The position numbers and the translations under genes are program-made. The notes under the pieces were generated by a model. It did no database searches and was not told where the DNA came from. It saw nothing but the letters and a program-made list of their open reading frames with translations. DNA of 61,145 nt, from IMG/VR virus record IMGVR_UViG_3300027844_000688, positions 1 to 61,145 of that record; one strand, written 5' to 3'. Source of the DNA: a virus. Within the stretch, counting starts at the first letter, position 1. Each line of letters begins with the position of its first letter. Shown piece after piece: positions 7,506 to 38,117 of the stretch.

Positions 7506-10500
7506 TCAAGCTGTCAGGTCAAAACCGTGTTGGACAGCGGCCTTCTTCCCAATGGAAGAAGCGGCATCATTCACGATATCGTCTGCGAGACTGACCAGCT
7601 TTTCCATACGTTCAGCCGAACCAGAAATCATCTCTTCAAGCCGCAGTTGGGCGGTCGGAGAAGAATCACCAGCACCGGTCATGCTATCGCAAAGACCCTG
7701 GAGGTAAGGAACGACCTCGCTCACGGCACCGACCACTCGATCAGATGCAGCAAGGGATTCCAGAGAGAGGCCGTCTTCACCGGCTGCTCCAGCAGAAATC
7801 AACGAGTCCCGAATCTTGTCCACGGTGCTGACCAAGGTATCGGCAGCGGAGGAAATCCCTCCAACACCTTCGACGCCCGCAGCAGCGAGCTTCGCAGCAC
7901 AGAGCTTGAGGTGGTCTCGGAGACGCCCCAGTTCCATCACCTGTTCATCGTGAGCCTGCTTGGCGAGTTGGACCACCCGGGAAGCCTGCTTGCCGGGTTC
8001 GGCACCTCGACTCTCTGTGGAGGCTGAAGCCAAATCACCCTCTTCCTGCTCCCCACGGAGTTCTCGGTTGGACTGTTGGGTGAAATGCCCATCCATGTAG
8101 GCACCTTCGTCCCCGTCGCCTTCGGCGGGACCGGCAACCTCACGACCGATGTCGTCTGGATCAAAGCCTTCTTCCTTCACGACATCGAGTTCATCAAGAG
8201 CAGTGCGATCTGCGCCTGCCTGACGCTCGACGTGATCTGAAAGCAGATCACAGCGATATGAGAAATCAGTTGCGACATGGGTGGGGACTCCAAGAGCCCT
8301 CGCCTCTGTCTCAAAAAGAGTAGCGATGCGGTCAAGTGTCTGGGACACCTGCTTTGCACCGTGTGGGGTCAGAGTTGCCATTTTCTTGTGCCTCCTAAAC
8401 CGGGTCGGGCCAGATTGTTCGTCTCTATCACGCAAAGGCCCTTCAGATACAGGAAGCCCTCTGCTTATATCACCAAGGTTATAGAGGAAAGATTGGGATG
8501 ACTTGTTTGCCAAAGATACTGCCCTGGTCAGCGAGGCTTCTTTGGCCTGTTCCAAGATTCGCCTCACTTGCTCGGGCTCAAGTGTCCCGTCTTCCACAAG
8601 TTTCGCCAGGGCTTGCCTGAAACTTTCAGGGACTTCTTTGCCCCCTGAAAGTTTGGAATGTTCGTCTGCGAGAGCCTTATGGACCGCTTCTGTGTGTTGA
8701 GAAACAGCCTTCTGGACCTCTTCATCGGTCCCCTCTGGAGGGGTCTTCAACTTGCCTATCGAGGCAAATGCCTCGACCACGGCGGTACTGGAATGAACCC
8801 GGGCCACCGCATCATCGATCTGGTCACGTTTCTCTGACGGAGAGAGATCGGCCCACTTCTTCTTGTCCTTCTGTTCCTTCTTCTTGTCCTTCTGTTCCTT
8901 CTTCTGCTTCTTCTTCCGTTCGTCTTCCTTGCCCTTACCTGACAGAGCCTTGGCGAGCATGGGGCCTTTAGTAGAGAAGTCGTGAGAAGCGTTCCGGCGC
9001 ATCCAGTCTTCCAAGAACGCTCTACCATCCCCCGTCATGGAGGAACTCTTGCTGTCCAGAGCCTTCGCCATGTCACCGTAAGGAGATTTATCGCCTCCGG
9101 TTACGGCCACGATATCGGTAGGGCTCATATCAGCGAGGGCTTCGTCGTAGATCCGTTTGGATTCATCGCTGCCGGGATCGTCAGCGATCTTTAGGACATC
9201 CCCCATCTTCCCCTGGCTCTGAAGGGATTTGATCATCTGGAGCACACCCGCTGATGGGGCGTCCCCGGTATTCCCAAAGGAATCGGGCTGGTCATTGAGC
9301 AATCGGGCAGTAGCGAGAGAGTTCCGTACAGCCTTGACTTGCTTGTACTCCGCAGACCTCTTTTCGTCCTTGAGAGTCCCGTCTACATTGGTCAGTGAAG
9401 AAATCCGGTCATTGAGCTTGTGGAGGATTTCCTCTTGCTCCTTCTCCTTCATGGAGCCGAACTGGACGACGGCGATGTTAGCCCTCTCACCCAGCTTCTC
9501 TGGGGTGGCTTGATCAGCGTCGTTCTTGATCTTGGAGCCACCAGACCACATCGGATTGAACGTGACCTGCTGGGCGATCTGGGAGTAAGCGATGGATTCT
9601 GCGAGTTCCTCGACCGAAACCCGCTTCTCCGCTTTGGCGAGCCTTGCCTTTGCAGCCCCCAGACTCCCCTCGACCCCCTGGACCTGCTCTTCTAACTTGG
9701 CCTTCTGCTCTTCCTTCTCTTCTGGTGACCCCTCACCGGACTCCAACGCTTTGAGTTGCTCCCCCAAGTCCTTCAGATTTCTCTCGGATTCCTTGACCTG
9801 GGACTGGGCTGCCGAGAGCTTCTCGAAGGGTTCAGTGTCCACACCACTCCGAGATGCCCTGGACTTATCCAATACCCAATCGGGGGTCTTACCCCCAACA
9901 GCCATCACATCAATAGCCTTGTTGATATGCCCCTGGACAGATTCGGACAACTCCAGTTGTTGGTCTTGGTCCAACAGCGCCATCGCATCTGCAATAGACT
10001 TCTTGGTTTCCCACATCGGCGAAGCGGAAGCCATCTGGCCTTCAAGCCGATTGACCGTCTTTGTGATCTTGTCTGCATCAGCTTTTAGCTTCTTGATCCT
10101 GCTCTCGTCCCGGGCTTTCTGGGTCTCACCTGCCCGAAACAACCCACCTTCGAGATCCTCCATCTCTGCAAGAAGTTCAGCCCGTTCTTGGTAAAGCGAA
10201 CCGAGTTCTTCCTCGGTCTCTTGCAGATCTTCGCTGCCATCGCCCATCTCTACATCAAAGGCATCTGCAATCGTGGCCTCCAACGCTTCGACGGCCTTTT
10301 CGATTCTTTTGGTCTTGTCTTCGGGGGACTCTTCCTTGGGAGTCTCCGAACCTTCACCCTCGTCCTTACCCTCGTCCTTACCCTCGTCCTCGTCTGTCCC
10401 TGGATCGTCCCCTGCAAGCCACGCCTCGGCGTCTTCTTTGGTCTTGAACTTCTGCTGTAAGGGCAGACCATCCTTATCCATCAAAGACTTGTGCTTGGCC

Positions 10501-12284
10501 TTGAAAGGCTTGCCACCCTTCTCTTTGGTCTCCCAAAGATCTCCTGGTTTCCGTTCCACGGCTTCCAAGTACCGAGAGGCAACTCGGTCAAGGGACTCTT
10601 CGTAAATGGTGTCCTTTAGATCAAAGGTGTCCTGCTGCTTGTTGGACACGAACCCGACTCGGGCCTTCAGCTTCTTCTTGCCCTTGGCAGGGGTGACACC
10701 CTTCGCCAAGAGATCGTTCGAGTACACGGGACTGGTCCCATCGGTCGCCACCGTGATGTGTGCAATCTTGTTGCTGCTCGTCACCCCGGCAACCTTGACC
10801 TTGACGGTTTGGCACTTCTCATCTGCCGCCCAACCGACGATCTCCAAAGGAGCAGAATCGCCCATAGGTAGCGCCTTGACCTCTTCTGGGCTGGGCTTGA
10901 ACTTGATCGTCATATGGTGGGCGAACCGCTTGGAAAGAAGGGGGATACCCGTCTCTTTCTCCCACCACCGGAACAACGCAGAGGGGTCGTCGAGAATGAC
11001 TGCTGTAAAGAGAGCCTTTGGCTTCTTGGCGGCAATCCTCTTGTAGTTCAGCGACAAGTCACGGTCTCCTTCCTGGCCCTGCGTCTCGATATCTGGATCA
11101 TCGACATCAAGTCGGCGCTTACGGAGATCGTACCGTGGGGGCTTCTTTTTTGGGTTGGGCTGGGACATATCTTCGATAGCTTCGTCCTCCTTCTCGGAAG
11201 GAGCCTTGGTAGCCACCCTTGTGGCCTCCCAACGAACCGCATGAATCGCTGCCCTTTCGCTGGTGTGCTTCTCAATAGAGAACCCCTCGCCCAAGGTCGA
11301 ATACCAGCCATGCCCGAACAAATAGACATAGCCTTTGGGGTCGAAGCTGCGAAACCCGACCGGGCTGCCCTTCATTTCCTCCACACCCCAATCGAACACT
11401 GCCTTCACAATGGTCGATTTGGAGAGAAGACCTCGGAGCCATCGTAAAAGCCCCGCCTCTCGATCCAGGGCGGCCTTCTTGACGGACATATCCTCGATGA
11501 CCGTGCCGTCCTTCATATAAGCATCCTCCAAGCCTGGGACCAAATACTGATCCTTCAGCATCGAAGAGGTATGCCCCACGGTCTTGGAGACCTCTTCCAA
11601 GACCTTCTTGAACTCATCTTTGAGGATTGCATCACGCTCTTTCCGGTCTACCGGAAGCTCCGGTCCGTCCTTACGAACGGCTTTCAGCGCATCCTGCATC
11701 TCACGATTAGCGTGGAACCCCCGAAGGTCTTTGGCGGTCACATCGTATTGATCGAGGTATTCGTTCACCTCTTTACCGTCGATCTTCTTCTCGATGCCCT
11801 CCCCCTGGAAAGCCAGAATGGAGTCCTCGGATTGCTTGTCTTTGACGGCCTCTTCCAAGGCTTTCACGACGTACTCGTTCTCGACGGTCTTATCGTGCTT
11901 GACCCCCGACTTACCTGTGTACTTGAGGCGAGCCTTGCCCCCTTCAAACGACACATGCCGCTTCTCCAAACAGGTCACCCCATAGTGGCCGTCCTCGGCA
12001 GACGAGGTGTTCCCGACCCGCTCGTAGGTTTCGTTGATTAGGGCAATCGCCAGGGCAGTCAATCGGGTCTCATCATCCTTGGATTGGAGGTCTTTCTTGA
12101 CCTTCGCTCGGAGATCGGAGATCGACGATTGGAGCTTGTCCAACCGCTCCGCTTTCTCTTCATGTCGCTGCTGGACCTGACGGGGGCCATACTCGTAGTG
12201 GGTATTCCCCTCTTCGTCTTCCGTCTTGGACTTGTACTTACCTTCCAAGTACCGGGCAGCGACTATGTTGGACAATGGGATCAT
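7506..12284 (-). CDS. Giant polyvalent virion protein: topoisomerase IB + 2H phosphoesterase-like domains
   Basis: 1592 residues, GGAGG five bases before ATG. Residues about 30-262 match poxvirus/bacterial-type DNA topoisomerase IB with all five catalytic residues in place: Arg89 (YERVGN), Lys125 (YTGKSG), Arg188 (AKDLRGFHAN), His238 (VGHTSS) and Tyr247 (LKDQYLVP). Residues about 423-560 carry two HxT motifs, His457-Met-Thr459 and His509-Ile-Thr511, the hallmark of 2H phosphoesterases. 'RVASRYLEAV' (567-576) and 'IVAARYLEGK' (7-16) repeat a short tag. Residues about 620-900 are long coiled coils, and further helical, Lys-rich segments follow. Near residue 1370 is a copy of the GPxE/FTQQ module shared with the protein at 19115-20107. 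It lies beside the portal gene, so it is probably packaged and delivered with the DNA (inference). Confidence 0.85.
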   Translation of the reverse strand: MIPLSNIVAARYLEGKYKSKTEDEEGNTHYEYGPRQVQQRHEEKAERLDKLQSSISDLRAKVKKDLQSKDDETRLTALAIALINETYERVGNTSSAEDGHYGVTCLEKRHVSFEGGKARLKYTGKSGVKHDKTVENEYVVKALEEAVKDKQSEDSILAFQGEGIEKKIDGKEVNEYLDQYDVTAKDLRGFHANREMQDALKAVRKDGPELPVDRKERDAILKDEFKKVLEEVSKTVGHTSSMLKDQYLVPGLEDAYMKDGTVIEDMSVKKAALDREAGLLRWLRGLLSKSTIVKAVFDWGVEEMKGSPVGFRSFDPKGYVYLFGHGWYSTLGEGFSIEKHTSERAAIHAVRWEATRVATKAPSEKEDEAIEDMSQPNPKKKPPRYDLRKRRLDVDDPDIETQGQEGDRDLSLNYKRIAAKKPKALFTAVILDDPSALFRWWEKETGIPLLSKRFAHHMTIKFKPSPEEVKALPMGDSAPLEIVGWAADEKCQTVKVKVAGVTSSNKIAHITVATDGTSPVYSNDLLAKGVTPAKGKKKLKARVGFVSNKQQDTFDLKDTIYEESLDRVASRYLEAVERKPGDLWETKEKGGKPFKAKHKSLMDKDGLPLQQKFKTKEDAEAWLAGDDPGTDEDEGKDEGKDEGEGSETPKEESPEDKTKRIEKAVEALEATIADAFDVEMGDGSEDLQETEEELGSLYQERAELLAEMEDLEGGLFRAGETQKARDESRIKKLKADADKITKTVNRLEGQMASASPMWETKKSIADAMALLDQDQQLELSESVQGHINKAIDVMAVGGKTPDWVLDKSRASRSGVDTEPFEKLSAAQSQVKESERNLKDLGEQLKALESGEGSPEEKEEQKAKLEEQVQGVEGSLGAAKARLAKAEKRVSVEELAESIAYSQIAQQVTFNPMWSGGSKIKNDADQATPEKLGERANIAVVQFGSMKEKEQEEILHKLNDRISSLTNVDGTLKDEKRSAEYKQVKAVRNSLATARLLNDQPDSFGNTGDAPSAGVLQMIKSLQSQGKMGDVLKIADDPGSDESKRIYDEALADMSPTDIVAVTGGDKSPYGDMAKALDSKSSSMTGDGRAFLEDWMRRNASHDFSTKGPMLAKALSGKGKEDERKKKQKKEQKDKKKEQKDKKKWADLSPSEKRDQIDDAVARVHSSTAVVEAFASIGKLKTPPEGTDEEVQKAVSQHTEAVHKALADEHSKLSGGKEVPESFRQALAKLVEDGTLEPEQVRRILEQAKEASLTRAVSLANKSSQSFLYNLGDISRGLPVSEGPLRDRDEQSGPTRFRRHKKMATLTPHGAKQVSQTLDRIATLFETEARALGVPTHVATDFSYRCDLLSDHVERQAGADRTALDELDVVKEEGFDPDDIGREVAGPAEGDGDEGAYMDGHFTQQSNRELRGEQEEGDLASASTESRGAEPGKQASRVVQLAKQAHDEQVMELGRLRDHLKLCAAKLAAAGVEGVGGISSAADTLVSTVDKIRDSLISAGAAGEDGLSLESLAASDRVVGAVSEVVPYLQGLCDSMTGAGDSSPTAQLRLEEMISGSAERMEKLVSLADDIVNDAASSIGKKAAVQHGFDLTA

Positions 12285-32434: not shown

Positions 32435-32663
32435 ACTCAATCTCCGATACCACCTTGACTACGGCATAGGGGCCGCTTGGAGGTTGGGGCTGCCCGAAGT
32501 CCTCGTTGCCGCTCACGGCAACGACTTGTCCGACCCTATTGATAAGCAGGTAGTCGTCCTTCTCGTACTCCAGAATCTCGGTTCTCTCCACAGAGACCTC
32601 CCCGACACAACGCTCACATGGCTGGGCTGACCCACAGGTTTCGCAGATGCTTTTCCATGTCAT
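32427..32663 (-). CDS. Small zinc-finger protein
   Basis: 78 residues, overlapping both neighbours by 4-8 bases. The N-terminus 'CETCGSAQPCERC' gives two CxxC pairs for one zinc. The rest is beta-rich ('DDYLLINRVGQVVAVSGNED', 'YAVVKVVSEIEY'). It is coupled to the Rad50 C-terminal-half gene. No specific role can be assigned. Confidence 0.65.
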   Translation of the reverse strand: MTWKSICETCGSAQPCERCVGEVSVERTEILEYEKDDYLLINRVGQVVAVSGNEDFGQPQPPSGPYAVVKVVSEIEYA

Positions 32664-33298
32664 CGGACCTCCTTGAAGACCGATGCTTCATCCTTGATCT
32701 GAATGGTGTATGCCTTGTCTGCCGCCTCCACCAATGCTGGGTTGTGAGACACCAGCAAAATGTCCATGCCCAGCCGCTTGCACAGTAGGGACAGGAAGCG
32801 GCTCATGTTGTGGACGTAGTGGGCGTCGAAGGCTGGCAAAGACTCATCCAACAGCAACAAGGGACGCATCTCCCGACGCAGCAGGACAATGATTCGTAGC
32901 AGGGCTGATTGGACCGTTGTGACCGCCCCACCGAAAGCATCACTACTCGAACCATCGATAACAGTCCCATTCGGTTGACGTTGCTTGGTGATCAGATCCA
33001 CCGAGACCTTGCCCCGTTGAACCTCGACGTTGGCCTCCACCCACAGGTCTTGGTCGTCAAAAACCGACGCAAGCCCTTCGGAGAGCAGCTTCTCGACGGC
33101 CTGGACTCCCTCGGTGATCTCCATGTCGATCATCTGCCGGAAGACATTGGCTACCAGTTCGAGCTTCTCTTCTTCGGCCTCGAAGCGGCGGATCTCGGCC
33201 TGGGTGTCGCCCAAACGCCGTTGGACGCCTTCACGCATACCAACGGCTCGATCCAGCTTCGACCGAAGCTCCTGTGTCTTGGGGACGGGGGGGAGCAT
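32660..33298 (-). CDS. Rad50/SbcC C-terminal half (separate gene)
   Basis: 212 residues. A coiled coil (residues 9-60) leads into an ABC ATPase C-lobe: degenerate signature 'SSSDAFGGAVTTVQSALLRI' (117-136), Walker B 'RPLLLLDESLPAFDAHY' (Asp151, Glu152, D-loop) and H-loop 'DILLVSHNP' (His185). No Walker A is present; it lies on the separate gene at 37050-38117. It follows the clamp gene with a TAAATG junction. I infer that the two polypeptides assemble into one Rad50-like head that works with the SbcD/Mre11 nuclease at 35692. The lack of a long coil is notable. Confidence 0.85.
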   Translation of the reverse strand: MLPPVPKTQELRSKLDRAVGMREGVQRRLGDTQAEIRRFEAEEEKLELVANVFRQMIDMEITEGVQAVEKLLSEGLASVFDDQDLWVEANVEVQRGKVSVDLITKQRQPNGTVIDGSSSDAFGGAVTTVQSALLRIIVLLRREMRPLLLLDESLPAFDAHYVHNMSRFLSLLCKRLGMDILLVSHNPALVEAADKAYTIQIKDEASVFKEVR

Positions 33299-34429
33299 TT
33301 ATACCTCCCAGGCGACAATAGACAGGTAGTCGTCACCACTTCGACTCTCATCGAAGCGAACCCAACCACCCTTACCCTTCTGATTGATGCCGAAGCGGAT
33401 CGTGTCTCCCTTGTAGCTGGATAGAATCTTCTCCAGATTCTTGTAACTGATGGAGAAACTATCCAGATCATCCGAGTTGTCAGAGGCACCTGACTCCACA
33501 CACTCAACAGGGAGGTACTTCTGGCCTCCCACCATGCGGGTCATGCCCATCTCAACCCCTGCCTCGGAAGGGCGAAAGAAGAGGCGCACGTCTTCGTGAG
33601 GCGCACCAGAGCGAAGGAATCGGATGCCCGTCTCAACACCCTCTTTGGAGAGAACCCAATAATGCTGGTCCTCACGGTCACGGCCCACGTCCAACATAGG
33701 GAACGCCTTGGAGAAGCGGGACTCCCCGAAGAGTGCCCCATCCCCACGCCGGTAGATGGCGAAGCGGTCGTGCTCCAGAATCTCGATGTCTCCATCACCA
33801 CACAAGGTCAAGAACTGCTGCAAAGCGGGGATGTTCTTACCGTGGATACGAATCGTAGATCCCTTGATCCCTTGAACCCCAACGACCGTGGCCGTTTCCT
33901 TGTCTGAAGCGTAGAACAGCCCATCCCGAACCTCGGTCAAGCTGAACTCTGGTGTCTTCGTGTCGTCTGGGGAAATGAAGGAACGGAGATGCGAGAGCGC
34001 ACCAAAGAGGCGGGGCGTCTCCAAGGACACCGTGGAGGCAGCTTCCTTGAGGACATCATCCCACAACGGAAACATCTCTGGGTCCAAAGAGGCGAACTGT
34101 TGATCCCCAACCGGGGCTGTGGCCTTCACCACCTCCCCGTCAAACTCCAACGTGAGAGCGGCATCTTCTACTGCGCTCAACCACATCTGGAGCCTCTTAC
34201 CCTCGACGGTGAACGCAGAGGGTTCACCATCAGTATGATCGACCACCTGACAAACCAGGGGGCAACTGCTGAATACACGATTGCTTTGAGACAGTACCTC
34301 CGCCCCGGTTCCGTCACCCGTCACCCGAAACAAGTAGTGGGTTGAGATGTCCGACCCTGTGGTTGAAATAGTGGTAGAGGTCAACTTGATAGCGTCCATC
34401 AAGTCCTGCTTGGCAATCAAGATTTTCAT
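33299..34429 (-). CDS. dnaN: DNA polymerase III beta-type sliding clamp
   Basis: 376 residues, close to the bacterial length (about 366). Three repeated domains are visible, with typical phrases: 'MKILIAKQDLMDAIKLTSTT', 'FTVEGKRLQMWLSAVEDAAL', 'FSLTEVRDGLFYASDKETAT', and C-terminal 'SFSISYKNLEKILSSYKGDT' followed by 'SGDDYLSIVAWEV', in place of the usual '...yLImPmRl' end. The clamp encircles DNA and tethers polymerase. It overlaps the coiled-coil gene by ATGA and is flanked by Rad50/Mre11 parts. Confidence 0.88.
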   Translation of the reverse strand: MKILIAKQDLMDAIKLTSTTISTTGSDISTHYLFRVTGDGTGAEVLSQSNRVFSSCPLVCQVVDHTDGEPSAFTVEGKRLQMWLSAVEDAALTLEFDGEVVKATAPVGDQQFASLDPEMFPLWDDVLKEAASTVSLETPRLFGALSHLRSFISPDDTKTPEFSLTEVRDGLFYASDKETATVVGVQGIKGSTIRIHGKNIPALQQFLTLCGDGDIEILEHDRFAIYRRGDGALFGESRFSKAFPMLDVGRDREDQHYWVLSKEGVETGIRFLRSGAPHEDVRLFFRPSEAGVEMGMTRMVGGQKYLPVECVESGASDNSDDLDSFSISYKNLEKILSSYKGDTIRFGINQKGKGGWVRFDESRSGDDYLSIVAWEV

Positions 34430-34713
34430 TCTGGATCTCCCTGCGTGGTGTCGTTCAGATATGGTTGAAGGGCTGTCTCGGCGGTCGTGATCTCATTCTC
34501 GATATCGGAGACAGCCTTGGTGTATCGACCAGACAGGCTTTCAATAGCCTTATCAAGCTGGTCAGGCTCGATCTTGCGGTCTCGACACTCACGTTCTACG
34601 GTTTCCAGGGATTGCTGGGCGCTCTCCAGCCTTCCCTTCATACGCTGAACCTCGGAAGCGAGTTTATCCCTACGTTTGACAGCATCTTCTAATCGGCGGT
34701 GTACTTCATCCAT
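34426..34713 (-). CDS. Short coiled-coil protein, possible detached Rad50 arm
   Basis: 95 residues, almost wholly heptad-patterned: 'HRRLEDAVKRRDKLASEVQR', 'GRLESAQQSLETVERECRDR', 'AIESLSGRYTKAVSDIENEI'. It lies inside the recombination cluster, between the Cas4-like nuclease and the clamp. It could be the ascending or descending coil missing from the split Rad50, or an unrelated oligomerisation factor. No metal hook or catalytic residues. Confidence 0.65.
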   Translation of the reverse strand: MDEVHRRLEDAVKRRDKLASEVQRMKGRLESAQQSLETVERECRDRKIEPDQLDKAIESLSGRYTKAVSDIENEITTAETALQPYLNDTTQGDPE

Positions 34714-34733
34714 GTGGACCTCCTACGCATTAG

Positions 34734-35681
34734 CTACCCCCCACCCGGGGACTTTGACCCCCCGCCAGACAGGCCAAACTCAATAAGACCCTCGGCACCA
34801 TCAAACAGGTCTGTTGTATTCTTCGGCTTACGTCGATTCTGTTTCCGCTGTGCCTGCCTCGCATCACAAACATCCTCATAGTCACAGAGGCGGCACATAC
34901 TGGGAACCGGGACTGGATCAAACTTCTCCTTGTGTATCTCTTTACGGACACCTGCGGCTCGTTGGGCGAGTCCCTGCAAGTCCTCTTTCGAGAAGTCCAC
35001 CCAATCCACACCTGCATCTTCTGTCCCGTCTTCCTTGGGCGTCCCATATGGGTAACGGAAATACACGAACCCAATCCTGTCGGGGGATACATTGTGGGCG
35101 AGATAAAAGCACAGGGCATACCAACGAAGCTGGTCTGGGTCTGTGTACCGACCCTTGTGGACCGAGTTCTTCCCATCGAGGATCGTGATGCCTGTGTCCT
35201 CACGTCGGATGATGTAATCAGCCCTGCCACCGATGGGGGTGTACTTGTTCACGTAAGCAACCAGATCGACCTCGGACCGGGCGTAGGGTCCAACGAAGCG
35301 GTTGTGCTTCACAGTGCCAATAAACCCGGTCACTCCGTCGATACAGATCTGGAGCATTTCTGCCCGAGTTGGGGCCATTCGAGGATCAATATAGTGTTGT
35401 GCGATCTCGAAGGTGAACTCACGCCGGGTCAACTCTTTGAGGCGGTACACCAAGCCCGCAGGCTCTCTCCAAAGCTCATCGTTGTAGAAGGTCTCGGTCA
35501 CCTTGGCGATCACGATGCCCATCAAGGCGTGATGAGTGGATCTCTTATGGGGCTTGGGTTTCTTCTTTCCCGGCCCTGCCCCAAGGTCAATAGCGCCCCA
35601 CCCGCAATACCAGAGGAACTTCTGGGGACAATCTTCGTAACGACGAAAGTTAGTCCAATACAGCGTAAATGGTTTGTCCAA
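34734..35681 (-). CDS. Cas4/RecB-family Fe-S exonuclease
   Basis: 315 residues from a TTG start at 35681 with AGGGG about seven bases upstream; the longer open frame only shadows the SbcD gene. PD-(D/E)XK core: Glu137, Asp155 ('GGRADYII'), 'ITILDGKNS' (Asp169, Lys171) and 'PDQLRWYALC' (Gln184, Tyr188). Four cysteines, one before the core (Cys18 'RYEDCPQKF') and three after (263, 266, 272 in 'CRLCDYEDVC'), match the Fe-S cluster of Cas4 and AddB nucleases. A 5' or 3' single-strand exonuclease in recombination is expected. The C-terminus is basic. Confidence 0.82.
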   Translation of the reverse strand: MDKPFTLYWTNFRRYEDCPQKFLWYCGWGAIDLGAGPGKKKPKPHKRSTHHALMGIVIAKVTETFYNDELWREPAGLVYRLKELTRREFTFEIAQHYIDPRMAPTRAEMLQICIDGVTGFIGTVKHNRFVGPYARSEVDLVAYVNKYTPIGGRADYIIRREDTGITILDGKNSVHKGRYTDPDQLRWYALCFYLAHNVSPDRIGFVYFRYPYGTPKEDGTEDAGVDWVDFSKEDLQGLAQRAAGVRKEIHKEKFDPVPVPSMCRLCDYEDVCDARQAQRKQNRRKPKNTTDLFDGAEGLIEFGLSGGGSKSPGGG

Positions 35682-35691
35682 CTTGCTTCCC

Positions 35692-36672
35692 CTATTGAGC
35701 CTGTTCCAAGTAGAGGATGGCCTGCTCCCGAACTTCCTCTGGAATATCTGGCAGACCCCGAATGATGTCCAGCAAAGAAGTCTGGGTGTTGGAGGCCAAG
35801 GTCTCCTTGATGGACTCCACAAAGAAATCCATCGCCGCAGTACGAGCCTCTGTACGCACTCTACCGTCGAGATCAAAAACTTCGGCGGCGGGGAGAACAT
35901 TCAAATCACGGCGTTCAATACTCACACCAGACGCCTCGAAAGAGAGAACGACACAGGCTGGTTTGCGGTCCAAGTCATCTTGGATCAACGCCCCTCGACT
36001 CAAGCTACCGAGATTCACAACCTGCTTACCGGGAGCAATCTCTGTAATGCCCTGGTCCTTGTGCCAATGCCCGAACAACCAAACATCGGGATCAAGGCCA
36101 GCCAGATCTGCATACTTCACGATGTCTTCGTTCTCAAACATCTGACCGCCCTTCGGGCTGGCAAGAACATGAGCCGCTACCACAAGGTAGTCCTCATCCC
36201 CCTTCTTGATGTTCTTGAAGCGGTCCATGTCGTACTTGGTCCCGTGGTATGGGATGCCCACAACACGAACTCTCGGTCGGAGCTTCGTCCCGGGCGAACC
36301 AAATACCGCCTCGTATTCGTCGTATAAGCGGCGGAAGACACCCGTTGAATACAGCACCCCCAAAGGCTGCTGGTCCAGATAAGAGTAGTCACCGTAGATA
36401 CAATCATGGTTGCCGATGTTGGCATAGACCGGGCAGGGATATTCGGCGTGGAGATCTGCCACCGCCCGAACGAGGCTGTGGCTGTTCCTGCTTGGACTCT
36501 TGAGGTCAAAGAAGTCGCCGCCGTCAATCACCGCTTCGGCTTTGACCTCTTTGGCAATCTCTCCGATCTGCCGGAGCTTCCCCAGGATCGTCTCCCGCCA
36601 ATCATCTGTACGAGATTGGGGGGATCTATCCGATAGATGTACGTCTGTTCGCCAAACAAGTGTCACGCCCAT
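35692..36672 (-). CDS. sbcD: SbcD/Mre11-like nuclease
   Basis: 326 residues from ATG at 36672 (GGGAG six bases upstream). Calcineurin-type metal ligands in order: 'TDVHLSDRSP', 'AVIDGGDFFD', 'YANIGNHDCIYG', 'VVAAHVLAS' and 'DVWLFGHWHKDQG'. This is the Mre11/SbcD double-strand-break nuclease, comparable to T4 gp47. It lies between the two gene halves of its Rad50/SbcC partner. The C-terminal helices after residue 260 probably bind the Rad50 coil base. Confidence 0.88.
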   Translation of the reverse strand: MGVTLVWRTDVHLSDRSPQSRTDDWRETILGKLRQIGEIAKEVKAEAVIDGGDFFDLKSPSRNSHSLVRAVADLHAEYPCPVYANIGNHDCIYGDYSYLDQQPLGVLYSTGVFRRLYDEYEAVFGSPGTKLRPRVRVVGIPYHGTKYDMDRFKNIKKGDEDYLVVAAHVLASPKGGQMFENEDIVKYADLAGLDPDVWLFGHWHKDQGITEIAPGKQVVNLGSLSRGALIQDDLDRKPACVVLSFEASGVSIERRDLNVLPAAEVFDLDGRVRTEARTAAMDFFVESIKETLASNTQTSLLDIIRGLPDIPEEVREQAILYLEQAQ

Positions 36673-36725
36673 TGTGTTCTCCCATGCAACACTTGTTCTA
36701 CTCGGAACAACCCAAAACACGCCCC

Positions 36726-37028
36726 CTAATGGACGGCGATTTGTGGTGTCCTCAAGAGAGTGGCAAAGGCGGGCGTTTCTTCACCGACCCAAGCCCCGAG
36801 CGTGTTGAACTCAAAGAACTCGACGGCTTCCGCATGTGTCATCTGATCCCGTTCGGTCAGAATCTCAATGCAACGGTTCTTATCGTACAGAGCTATCGGG
36901 GGTCGCCCGAACTGTTCAACGTATCCAATCAAGGCATCTTCATATCCATCGGCCAGGATCAACTCCAGGCGAGATACTTCTTCAATGACATCTTCCGGCC
37001 ATACTGCGTAGGCGTCCTTTGTACCCAT
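36726..37028 (-). CDS. Widespread conserved small phage protein, unknown
   Basis: 100 residues. The C-terminal half 'PPIALYDKNRCIEILTERDQ', 'MTHAEAVEFFEFNTLGAWVG', 'EETPAF' is a pattern I recognise from many unrelated phages ('..cydyd.cIeiLm...m..eeAiEff.fN..GayvGe.tP.f'), but its function is not established. It sits between Mre11 and the Rad50 N-terminal half, suggesting co-expression with recombination functions. Confidence 0.75.
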   Translation of the reverse strand: MGTKDAYAVWPEDVIEEVSRLELILADGYEDALIGYVEQFGRPPIALYDKNRCIEILTERDQMTHAEAVEFFEFNTLGAWVGEETPAFATLLRTPQIAVH

Positions 37029-37049
37029 GTCCCAACCCTCCCAAACGGT

Positions 37050-38117
37050 TCAGAACACAGTACCGCAGACAGGGCACTCTCCGTGATCCCCAAGCAAATC
37101 CTCTACCGCCTTATCGGCGGAAGATCGTTCTGTGTCCGTGGTTTCGATGTCTTTCTGGGTATCTATTATTTGGGCACGCACGATGAGTATACGATCTCGC
37201 AACGACCGCAGATCGACCAATGTAGACGCCATGTTAGTAGCGGCCACGACTGACCCATTGAAGTTGGGAACCGACGCCTCATCGATACCCGTCAGACTTT
37301 CAACCGCCTGCCGAGAATCCTGCAAGCGGGTGCGTAGACCACGCATCTCTTGAAGCTCCTTCAAGAGATCGTAGAGATCCCACCGTGGGATCTTGATCTC
37401 ATCAACCCCGGCGAGATGCTCAACTTCAGATGTAGCCTTCACCCAAGCGGCGTGCAGGTCCGTGACCTTGCCTATGACCCCATGAAGATGCGCTGCCTTC
37501 TCGATGGAACCTTCAATGCCGCTCGACTGGTCAATGACTTCATCCAACCCCTCATAGGTCTCAAGCTCTCCCACCAGGGATTGCTCATCGGTGCGACGGA
37601 CCTTGAGGGTGCTGGAGGCAGAACGGCGGTCAGACTCGGAAGTCTTCAAGGCTCGGTTCAAGGCACCGACCCGTTCCACGTCAGACACAGCTTCCGCAAT
37701 CACCGATCCTGGCTGATCCACAAGGAACGCCACATCAACGATCTGCCGTGCAACTTGAGGCCAGATGGGCTGACCGCCTGCCACAATAGGTCTAATGTCG
37801 AGAGCCGCCACCTCGGGGGGAACTTCCCGCCCAGAATAGATGGGTTCACCGTCGTTGACGATGTATCGAGGCTTGATCTTCGGCCCCTTCTCCCAACACA
37901 CCTTCTCACCGGAATCAAACTCAATCTCCACCGATGAGTAGTCTGCCCCATGCCTGACGAACGATGTCCCCTTGGTGTTGGTGAAGACACCATGAATAGC
38001 CCGCATCAAGGCGCTTTTGCCCCGGTTGTTGCTCCCGGTAACAACAGTAAAACCATCGATCTCGATGCTACTGTCTTTGATACTCTGGAAGTTCTGTACC
38101 CGAACTCTAATCGCCAT
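37050..38117 (-). CDS. Rad50/SbcC N-terminal half ending at the zinc hook (separate gene)
   Basis: 355 residues from ATG at 38117. The N-lobe has 'IRVRVQNFQSIKDSSIEIDG' and Walker A 'GSNNRGKSAL' (28-37), then the Q-loop region and a long coiled coil (about 140-340). The protein stops four residues after the CPVC zinc hook (Cys348, Cys351: 'GECPVCGTVF'). Walker B, signature and D-loop are missing here and appear in the gene at 32660-33298. This is not an assembly frameshift, since five genes lie between the halves. I infer a two-chain Rad50. Confidence 0.87.
   Translation of the reverse strand: MAIRVRVQNFQSIKDSSIEIDGFTVVTGSNNRGKSALMRAIHGVFTNTKGTSFVRHGADYSSVEIEFDSGEKVCWEKGPKIKPRYIVNDGEPIYSGREVPPEVAALDIRPIVAGGQPIWPQVARQIVDVAFLVDQPGSVIAEAVSDVERVGALNRALKTSESDRRSASSTLKVRRTDEQSLVGELETYEGLDEVIDQSSGIEGSIEKAAHLHGVIGKVTDLHAAWVKATSEVEHLAGVDEIKIPRWDLYDLLKELQEMRGLRTRLQDSRQAVESLTGIDEASVPNFNGSVVAATNMASTLVDLRSLRDRILIVRAQIIDTQKDIETTDTERSSADKAVEDLLGDHGECPVCGTVF

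Follow-up and report, generated by a model that had tools for sequence, protein, structure and literature searches.

A probable multi-chain Rad50, divided at the zinc hook and encoded with an Mre11-type nuclease, in a virus genome and related phages

Here we describe a Rad50/SbcC-type ATPase encoded by separate genes in IMG/VR virus record IMGVR_UViG_3300027844_000688, of which positions 1 to 61,145 (61,145 nucleotides, hereafter the window) were analysed. One gene (37050-38117) encodes a chain that ends at the zinc hook (the N-half), another (32660-33298) encodes the second ATPase lobe (the C-half), and a third, for a small coiled-coil protein, lies between them. The two halves very probably belong to a multi-chain Mre11-Rad50 (SbcCD) complex. 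A two-chain Rad50 had been proposed in a first-pass annotation of the window, and is backed by (i) complementary motifs in the two halves, (ii) their co-occurrence with Mre11, (iii) the lack of an intact Rad50 in the whole records searched, (iv) co-variation that is highest for the N-C pair, and (v) two proteins in which the halves are fused in reversed order. The case is stronger than first claimed, the arrangement being widespread in phages, with a probable small third subunit and a permuted single-chain counterpart. In agreement with the annotation, which took T4 gp46 and bacterial SbcC to be single chains, both place Walker A and the signature and Walker B motifs at opposite ends of one chain (PMC5105663).

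Translation of the two window genes bore out the motifs that the first-pass annotation had assigned to each. The N-half carries Walker A (GSNNRGKS, residues 28-35), a Q-loop glutamine (Q125), and the hook motif CPVC (348-351), followed by GTVF and the stop codon; CPVC thus lies four residues from the end of the chain and the hook end is a free terminus, as had been suggested. Its match to AAA_23 exceeds the cut-off, and in a PHROG search it groups with phrog_16465. In an alignment of 17 N-halves, G28, N31, G33, K34, and Q125 are conserved and CPxC is invariant (17/17). The profile of these sequences matches the Rad50 lobe I structures 1ii8_A and 1f2t_A in the PDB, and its last 60 positions match Rad50 zinc-hook domains (6zff_A, 2e-4; 1l8d_A, 3e-4). 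Between 3 and 18 residues separate the hook from the C-terminus in every lineage except that of Microbacterium phage Magritte, which has no CxxC; counting from the first hook cysteine in the 16 complete N-halves gives 7-17 residues, with Walker A and the hook spaced 317 to 418 residues apart. The mid-chain hook between two antiparallel arms of equal length, by which a Rad50/SbcC ABC-ATPase is recognized, is not found in the N-halves.

The C-half carries the complementary motifs, namely the signature FGGAV (122-126), Walker B LLLLDE (147-152), a D-loop, and the H-loop SHN (184-186), and neither Walker A nor CxxC occurs in its 212 amino acids. GG123-124 and DE151-152 are invariant in an eight-row C-half alignment, and the corresponding family, phrog_15167, is of similar extent (211 positions). 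The C-half profile matches the Rad50 C-lobe chains 3qkr_B and 1ii8_B from profile position 37-41 to 208, with weak E-values and most of the length covered; certain ABC transporters equal or outscore Rad50 in this PDB search, as a shared ABC fold would lead one to expect. The gene has its own Shine-Dalgarno sequence (GGGAGG), and its ATG abuts the stop codon of the sliding clamp gene.

When placed on the single-chain SbcC family phrog_77 (967 positions), the halves of Bacillus phage vB_BboS-125 and Microcystis phage Mvi-JY20 fall on opposite ends, the N-halves at approximately 298-427 and the C-halves at 757-952. A search of 19 whole records, the largest of 536 kb, revealed no intact second Rad50; those searched include the complete genomes deposited for Magritte, Tunturi_5, vB_BboS-125, and Mvi-JY20, as well as metagenomic records that may be incomplete. 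In these records, AAA_23 matches over the cut-off were N-halves or permuted fusions, plus one short extra match in a 402-kb record (G001), and the Tunturi_5 N-half fell below AAA_23 detection. Matches to phrog_77 were partial and mostly in split or fused genes, none spanning both lobes, and Mre11-type genes (PF00149) were matched in 17 of the 19 records.

Two proteins join the halves in one chain, with the C-half first and the N-half after it (L006:9320-11275, 651 amino acids; L013:7905-9719, 604 amino acids). They are encoded on contigs of 272 and 281 kb, respectively, from different metagenomes, are 40% identical to each other, and carry CPLC or CQTC near the C-terminus. In profile-profile comparison, the split C-half profile falls on fusion residues 119-199 (E 2e-8) and the split N-half profile on residues 226-378 (E 4e-16). 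Both lobes occur on one chain only in these two proteins, in reversed order, the window and its relatives using separate genes; by their predicted domain order, the two are natural circular permutants of Rad50. Such fusions usually imply that the separate partners act together, and the reverse-order fusion is strong sequence evidence that the halves work as one machine. In an AlphaFold model of the L013 protein (predicted local distance difference test, pLDDT, 78), both lobes score mostly >80 and the distal arm is weak. The best PDB matches of this model in Foldseek are Rad50 chains, including the N- and C-fragments of two-chain crystal structures; since Foldseek does not align circular permutants as a single unit, whole-chain template modelling (TM) scores are low by construction, and were used neither for nor against a single head. 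Matches to the model in BFVD include stand-alone viral proteins of Rad50-half size (A0A6J7XLB5, 215 amino acids; A0A8S5ME05, 219 amino acids) and an ascovirus 16.8 kDa Rad50-like protein (Q0E500).

The five genes that the first-pass annotation had placed between the two Rad50 genes were confirmed by translations and by PHROG and Pfam matches. In order of transcription, the cassette comprises:

37050..38117, minus strand: Rad50 N-half, 355 amino acids; lobe I with Walker A and Q-loop, outward helical arm, zinc hook CPVC
36726..37028, minus strand: 100-amino-acid protein, phrog_13182; absent from related cassettes
35692..36672, minus strand: Mre11/SbcD-type nuclease; PF00149 4.8e-13, phrog_100, PDB Mre11 match; kept in related cassettes
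34734..35699, minus strand: PD-(D/E)XK (PDDEXK_1) nuclease; PF12705 2.9e-13; kept in jumbo-type cassettes
34426..34713, minus strand: coiled-coil protein, 95 amino acids; homologue of vB_BboS-125 gp34
33299..34429, minus strand: DNA polymerase sliding clamp (processivity factor); phrog_947 2.9e-11; adjoins the C-half in jumbo-type loci
32660..33298, minus strand: Rad50 C-half, 212 amino acids; N-terminal coil (return-arm base), signature, Walker B, D-loop, H-loop; phrog_15167 2.1e-17

The phrog_13182 gene is probably an unrelated insertion between the Rad50 parts. The start of the PDDEXK_1 gene is uncertain, the first in-frame ATG, at 35900, overlapping Mre11. This gene had been called a Cas4-like nuclease; the nuclease assignment stands (PF12705, 3e-13), with Cas4 itself matching only at 0.2, and PD-(D/E)XK (RecB/PDDEXK_1) is the better name. 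Genes flanking the cassette include a UvsX-like recombinase, RuvC, a primase, and a clamp loader, which marks the cassette as part of a phage replication-recombination block. Elsewhere in the window, a 1592-amino-acid open frame without a PHROG match lies beside the portal gene (7506-12284, minus strand).

One way to reconcile two genes with an ordinary Rad50 is that trans-splicing inteins or split introns link the halves once they are expressed, restoring the usual single chain. Inteins do seem to be present in cassettes of this kind, in the Walker A region of one N-gene (L030:2644-4764) and in one Mre11 gene (L036:3689-6016), but these are apparently complete and lie inside single genes. At the break itself, the N-half ends 3-18 residues past CxxC without an N-intein and the C-half begins with its own coil and Shine-Dalgarno sequence without a C-intein; a Pfam scan gave no intein domain, and no Rfam intron was found within the window. 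Joining the halves would, moreover, still leave the return arm largely missing, and we regard this explanation as extremely improbable. Nor is there a sign of a structured recoding signal, as the RNA fold at the end of the N-half gene is not stronger than that of shuffled sequences.

The same split, for which the first-pass annotation had proposed a search of related phages, was seen in dozens of independent contigs. Searches with tblastn located both halves as separate genes in a 485-kb uncultured phage (LR745208), Tunturiibacter phage Tunturi_5, and Magritte, and separate halves are also found in vB_BboS-125 and Mvi-JY20. In scans of IMG/VR, the order N - Mre11 - PDDEXK - coil - clamp - C was seen on about 20 distinct contigs of the jumbo type, and N - (AP2 protein or other) - coil - C - Mre11 at 27 loci of the vB_BboS-125 type. 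Clustering of the C-halves at 95%, 70%, and 50% identity gives 36, 25, and 6 groups, respectively; the permuted fusions were included but some divergent members (e.g. that of Mvi-JY20) are missed, making these numbers a lower bound. Scans with the Tunturi_5 and Mvi-JY20 C-halves gave no additional viral loci. Given the recurrence of the arrangement in dozens of independent contigs and the Rad50 matches in the PDB, the split in the window is not due to chance, and the Rad50 split in phages is old and widespread. The T5-like 'AAA-ATPase' proteins of PHB04, Jeremy, and ST4 were rejected as N-halves, being single chains of ~440 amino acids without CxxC, and the 'RecF' of RCS47 was set aside as a weak unrelated match.

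Several further features of these loci were recorded. Just past the hook gene of vB_BboS-125 lies an AP2-domain protein, gp33 (L040:5032-5604), with counterparts in L045, L046, L060, L062, L063, and L069; it is possibly derived from a homing endonuclease, and an insertion at this point might have caused the split. The Mre11 gene of vB_BboS-125 (L040:6872-7852) is missing from the deposited gene table, which has a gap between gp36 and gp38. Two contigs binned into bacterial metagenome-assembled genomes (L038, L039) bear the same cassette, and these are probably phage contamination or prophage.

The small coiled-coil gene had been suggested to supply the missing arm, a claim that holds in part. 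Its membership in the system is upheld: the gene was found in 20/20 examined jumbo-type and 27/27 vB_BboS-125-type loci, and in all 27 of the latter it lies between N and C, the three genes being consecutive in L067, L068, and L070. This N-coil-C order is the order of the domains in Rad50, from which the coil protein probably supplies part of the return arm. In Tunturi_5, a coil gene directly follows the hook in frame, past a TAG codon and a Shine-Dalgarno sequence. The window coil is homologous to vB_BboS-125 gp34 (hhalign 94.8%, E 5e-8), and on a single-chain ASRP model (593) the N-half covers 3-308 and the window coil 348-429, although coil matches are easily spurious; a PDB search with the coil profile returned generic coiled coils only. 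As a whole arm, however, the protein is too short. Ordinary Rad50 needs two arms matched in length; the return arm here is accordingly either short or absent, and the outward arm must be stable largely alone.

Several observations weigh against a Rad50 assembled from these chains. The coil protein keeps to 80-82 aligned residues however long the outward arm is and cannot, therefore, be a full return strand, and its homology to Tunturi_5 gp180 and Mvi-JY20 XAI95541 is unproven (hhalign 15% and 10%, respectively). The hook is not universal, since the Magritte N-half (gp155, L008:5989-7041) is without any CxxC; both ATPase halves and a PF00149 gene are retained in this phage, and the hook is lost. 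The L013 permuted model has a predicted TM score (pTM) of only 0.63, with the distal arm poorly predicted. Distance matrices were correlated for the 15 pairs formed by six cassette genes, and N-C ranks first (r=0.89, versus 0.51-0.81 for the remainder), but these values are inflated by shared genome ancestry, such that the ranking alone is informative.

These points bear differently on two further explanations. The halves may have decayed or been repurposed to act apart, one perhaps a zinc-tipped adaptor and the other an ABC-like regulator, with no joint ATPase, in keeping with the lost Magritte hook and with halves that can lie >90 kb apart and, in Tunturi_5, on opposite strands. We consider this very unlikely, as catalytic residues are kept in both halves, which co-occur with Mre11, co-vary most strongly with each other, and are fused in two natural proteins. 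Alternatively, N and C could form a two-chain head with the coil protein outside Rad50, as a member of the clamp operon or a regulator. The coil gene directly precedes the clamp gene in jumbo-type loci, and its product falls well short of the outward arm in length, does not grow with it, and belongs to a class in which spurious matches are easily obtained. Its position between N and C in the vB_BboS-125-type loci, the presence of a coil gene directly after the Tunturi_5 hook, and the match of the window coil to ASRP downstream of the N-half part argue the other way; this explanation is unlikely on balance, though far less so than separate roles for the halves. We thus retain the multi-chain Rad50 as the preferred reading, with the coil protein probably a piece of its return arm.

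The residues past the hook offer a further lead. These residues are strongly enriched in His and Cys in most lineages: the two make up 12.9% of residues past CxxC versus 2.5% of whole N-proteins, and 19 of 25 tails contain at least one (e.g. CPFCGAAHETSC). Bacterial SbcC hooks have the form CPxCGxxH, and the first tail His resembles the one in this motif. Paired extra ligands past CxxC could form a self-contained zinc site, and a free tip may bind zinc within one chain, in place of or besides between two. The window tail GTVF (37050-37073) has no His or Cys, so zinc here, if any, would need to be shared between chains. We tentatively raise the possibility, somewhat short of an even chance, of a Rad50 made of three chains (N-half, coil, C-half) whose hook has turned into a removable or self-contained C-terminal tip, and whose halves two jumbo phages re-fused as a natural circular permutant. 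If so, a self-contained tip would let arms of variable length open and exchange there.

In the mechanism we propose, the chain with the zinc hook (N-half) would also carry the outward arm and ATPase lobe I, lobe II would come from the C-half together with the base of the return arm, and the small coil protein would probably lie against the arm, making up a piece of the returning strand. We infer that lobes I and II assemble into one ABC-ATPase head; as in ordinary Rad50, two such heads would hold ATP between them and gate the Mre11 dimer. At the distal tip, CPxC would sit on a free chain end rather than in a hairpin turn, leaving arm length free to vary, and ATP-gated processing of DNA ends would presumably serve phage recombination and replication. 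Rad50/SMC-type ATPases are pictured as one chain that runs out along the arm, turns at the hook or hinge, and returns. A natural, conserved hook-cut version whose return arm is missing or supplied by another chain, together with a circular permutant, would directly test which elements of this design are necessary: whether head engagement needs a covalent arm linkage, whether a hairpin is needed at the hook, and how the ATP signal travels along the coil. The halves are, in addition, small natural fragments for structural work.

Like T4 gp46/gp47 and SbcCD, the window system combines a Rad50/SbcC-type ABC ATPase with an Mre11/SbcD nuclease in a replication-recombination region near the clamp; gp46 and SbcC have two arms and a mid-chain hook, whereas the window chain breaks off at the hook and little of a return arm remains. 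In P. furiosus Rad50 constructs (PDB 1F2T, 1II8, 3QKR), which are engineered fragments with truncated coils, lobes I and II form one head as two chains, chain A being matched by the phage N-half and chain B by the C-half; the phage split, in contrast, is natural, and the N-chain retains arm and hook. Mimivirus R555 and Bacillus phage 0305phi8-36 also have rearranged viral Mre11-Rad50 systems, but there Mre11 is fused to Rad50 and no Rad50 split is described. For both Bacillus phage 0305phi8-36 and Anaerostipes, one P-loop segment of SbcC was reported as 'not observed' (PMC3175470), possibly an instance of the split described here. A survey of jumbo phages reported split DNA polymerase III alpha and RNA polymerase beta/beta', with SbcC as an ordinary ortholog (PMC7824862); these polymerases, though different enzymes, likewise have a normally single chain divided among separate genes. 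No description of a split or permuted Rad50/SbcC was found in the open-access literature, preprints and subscription papers lying outside this scope. The same three proteins are represented in PHROGs 16465, 15167, and 18563 (vB_BboS-125 gp32, gp35, and gp34, respectively), labelled 'exonuclease', 'ATPase', and without function, and are not joined there as one Rad50; phage genes labelled 'exonuclease', 'ATPase', or 'hypothetical' thereby become checkable for a Rad50 role.

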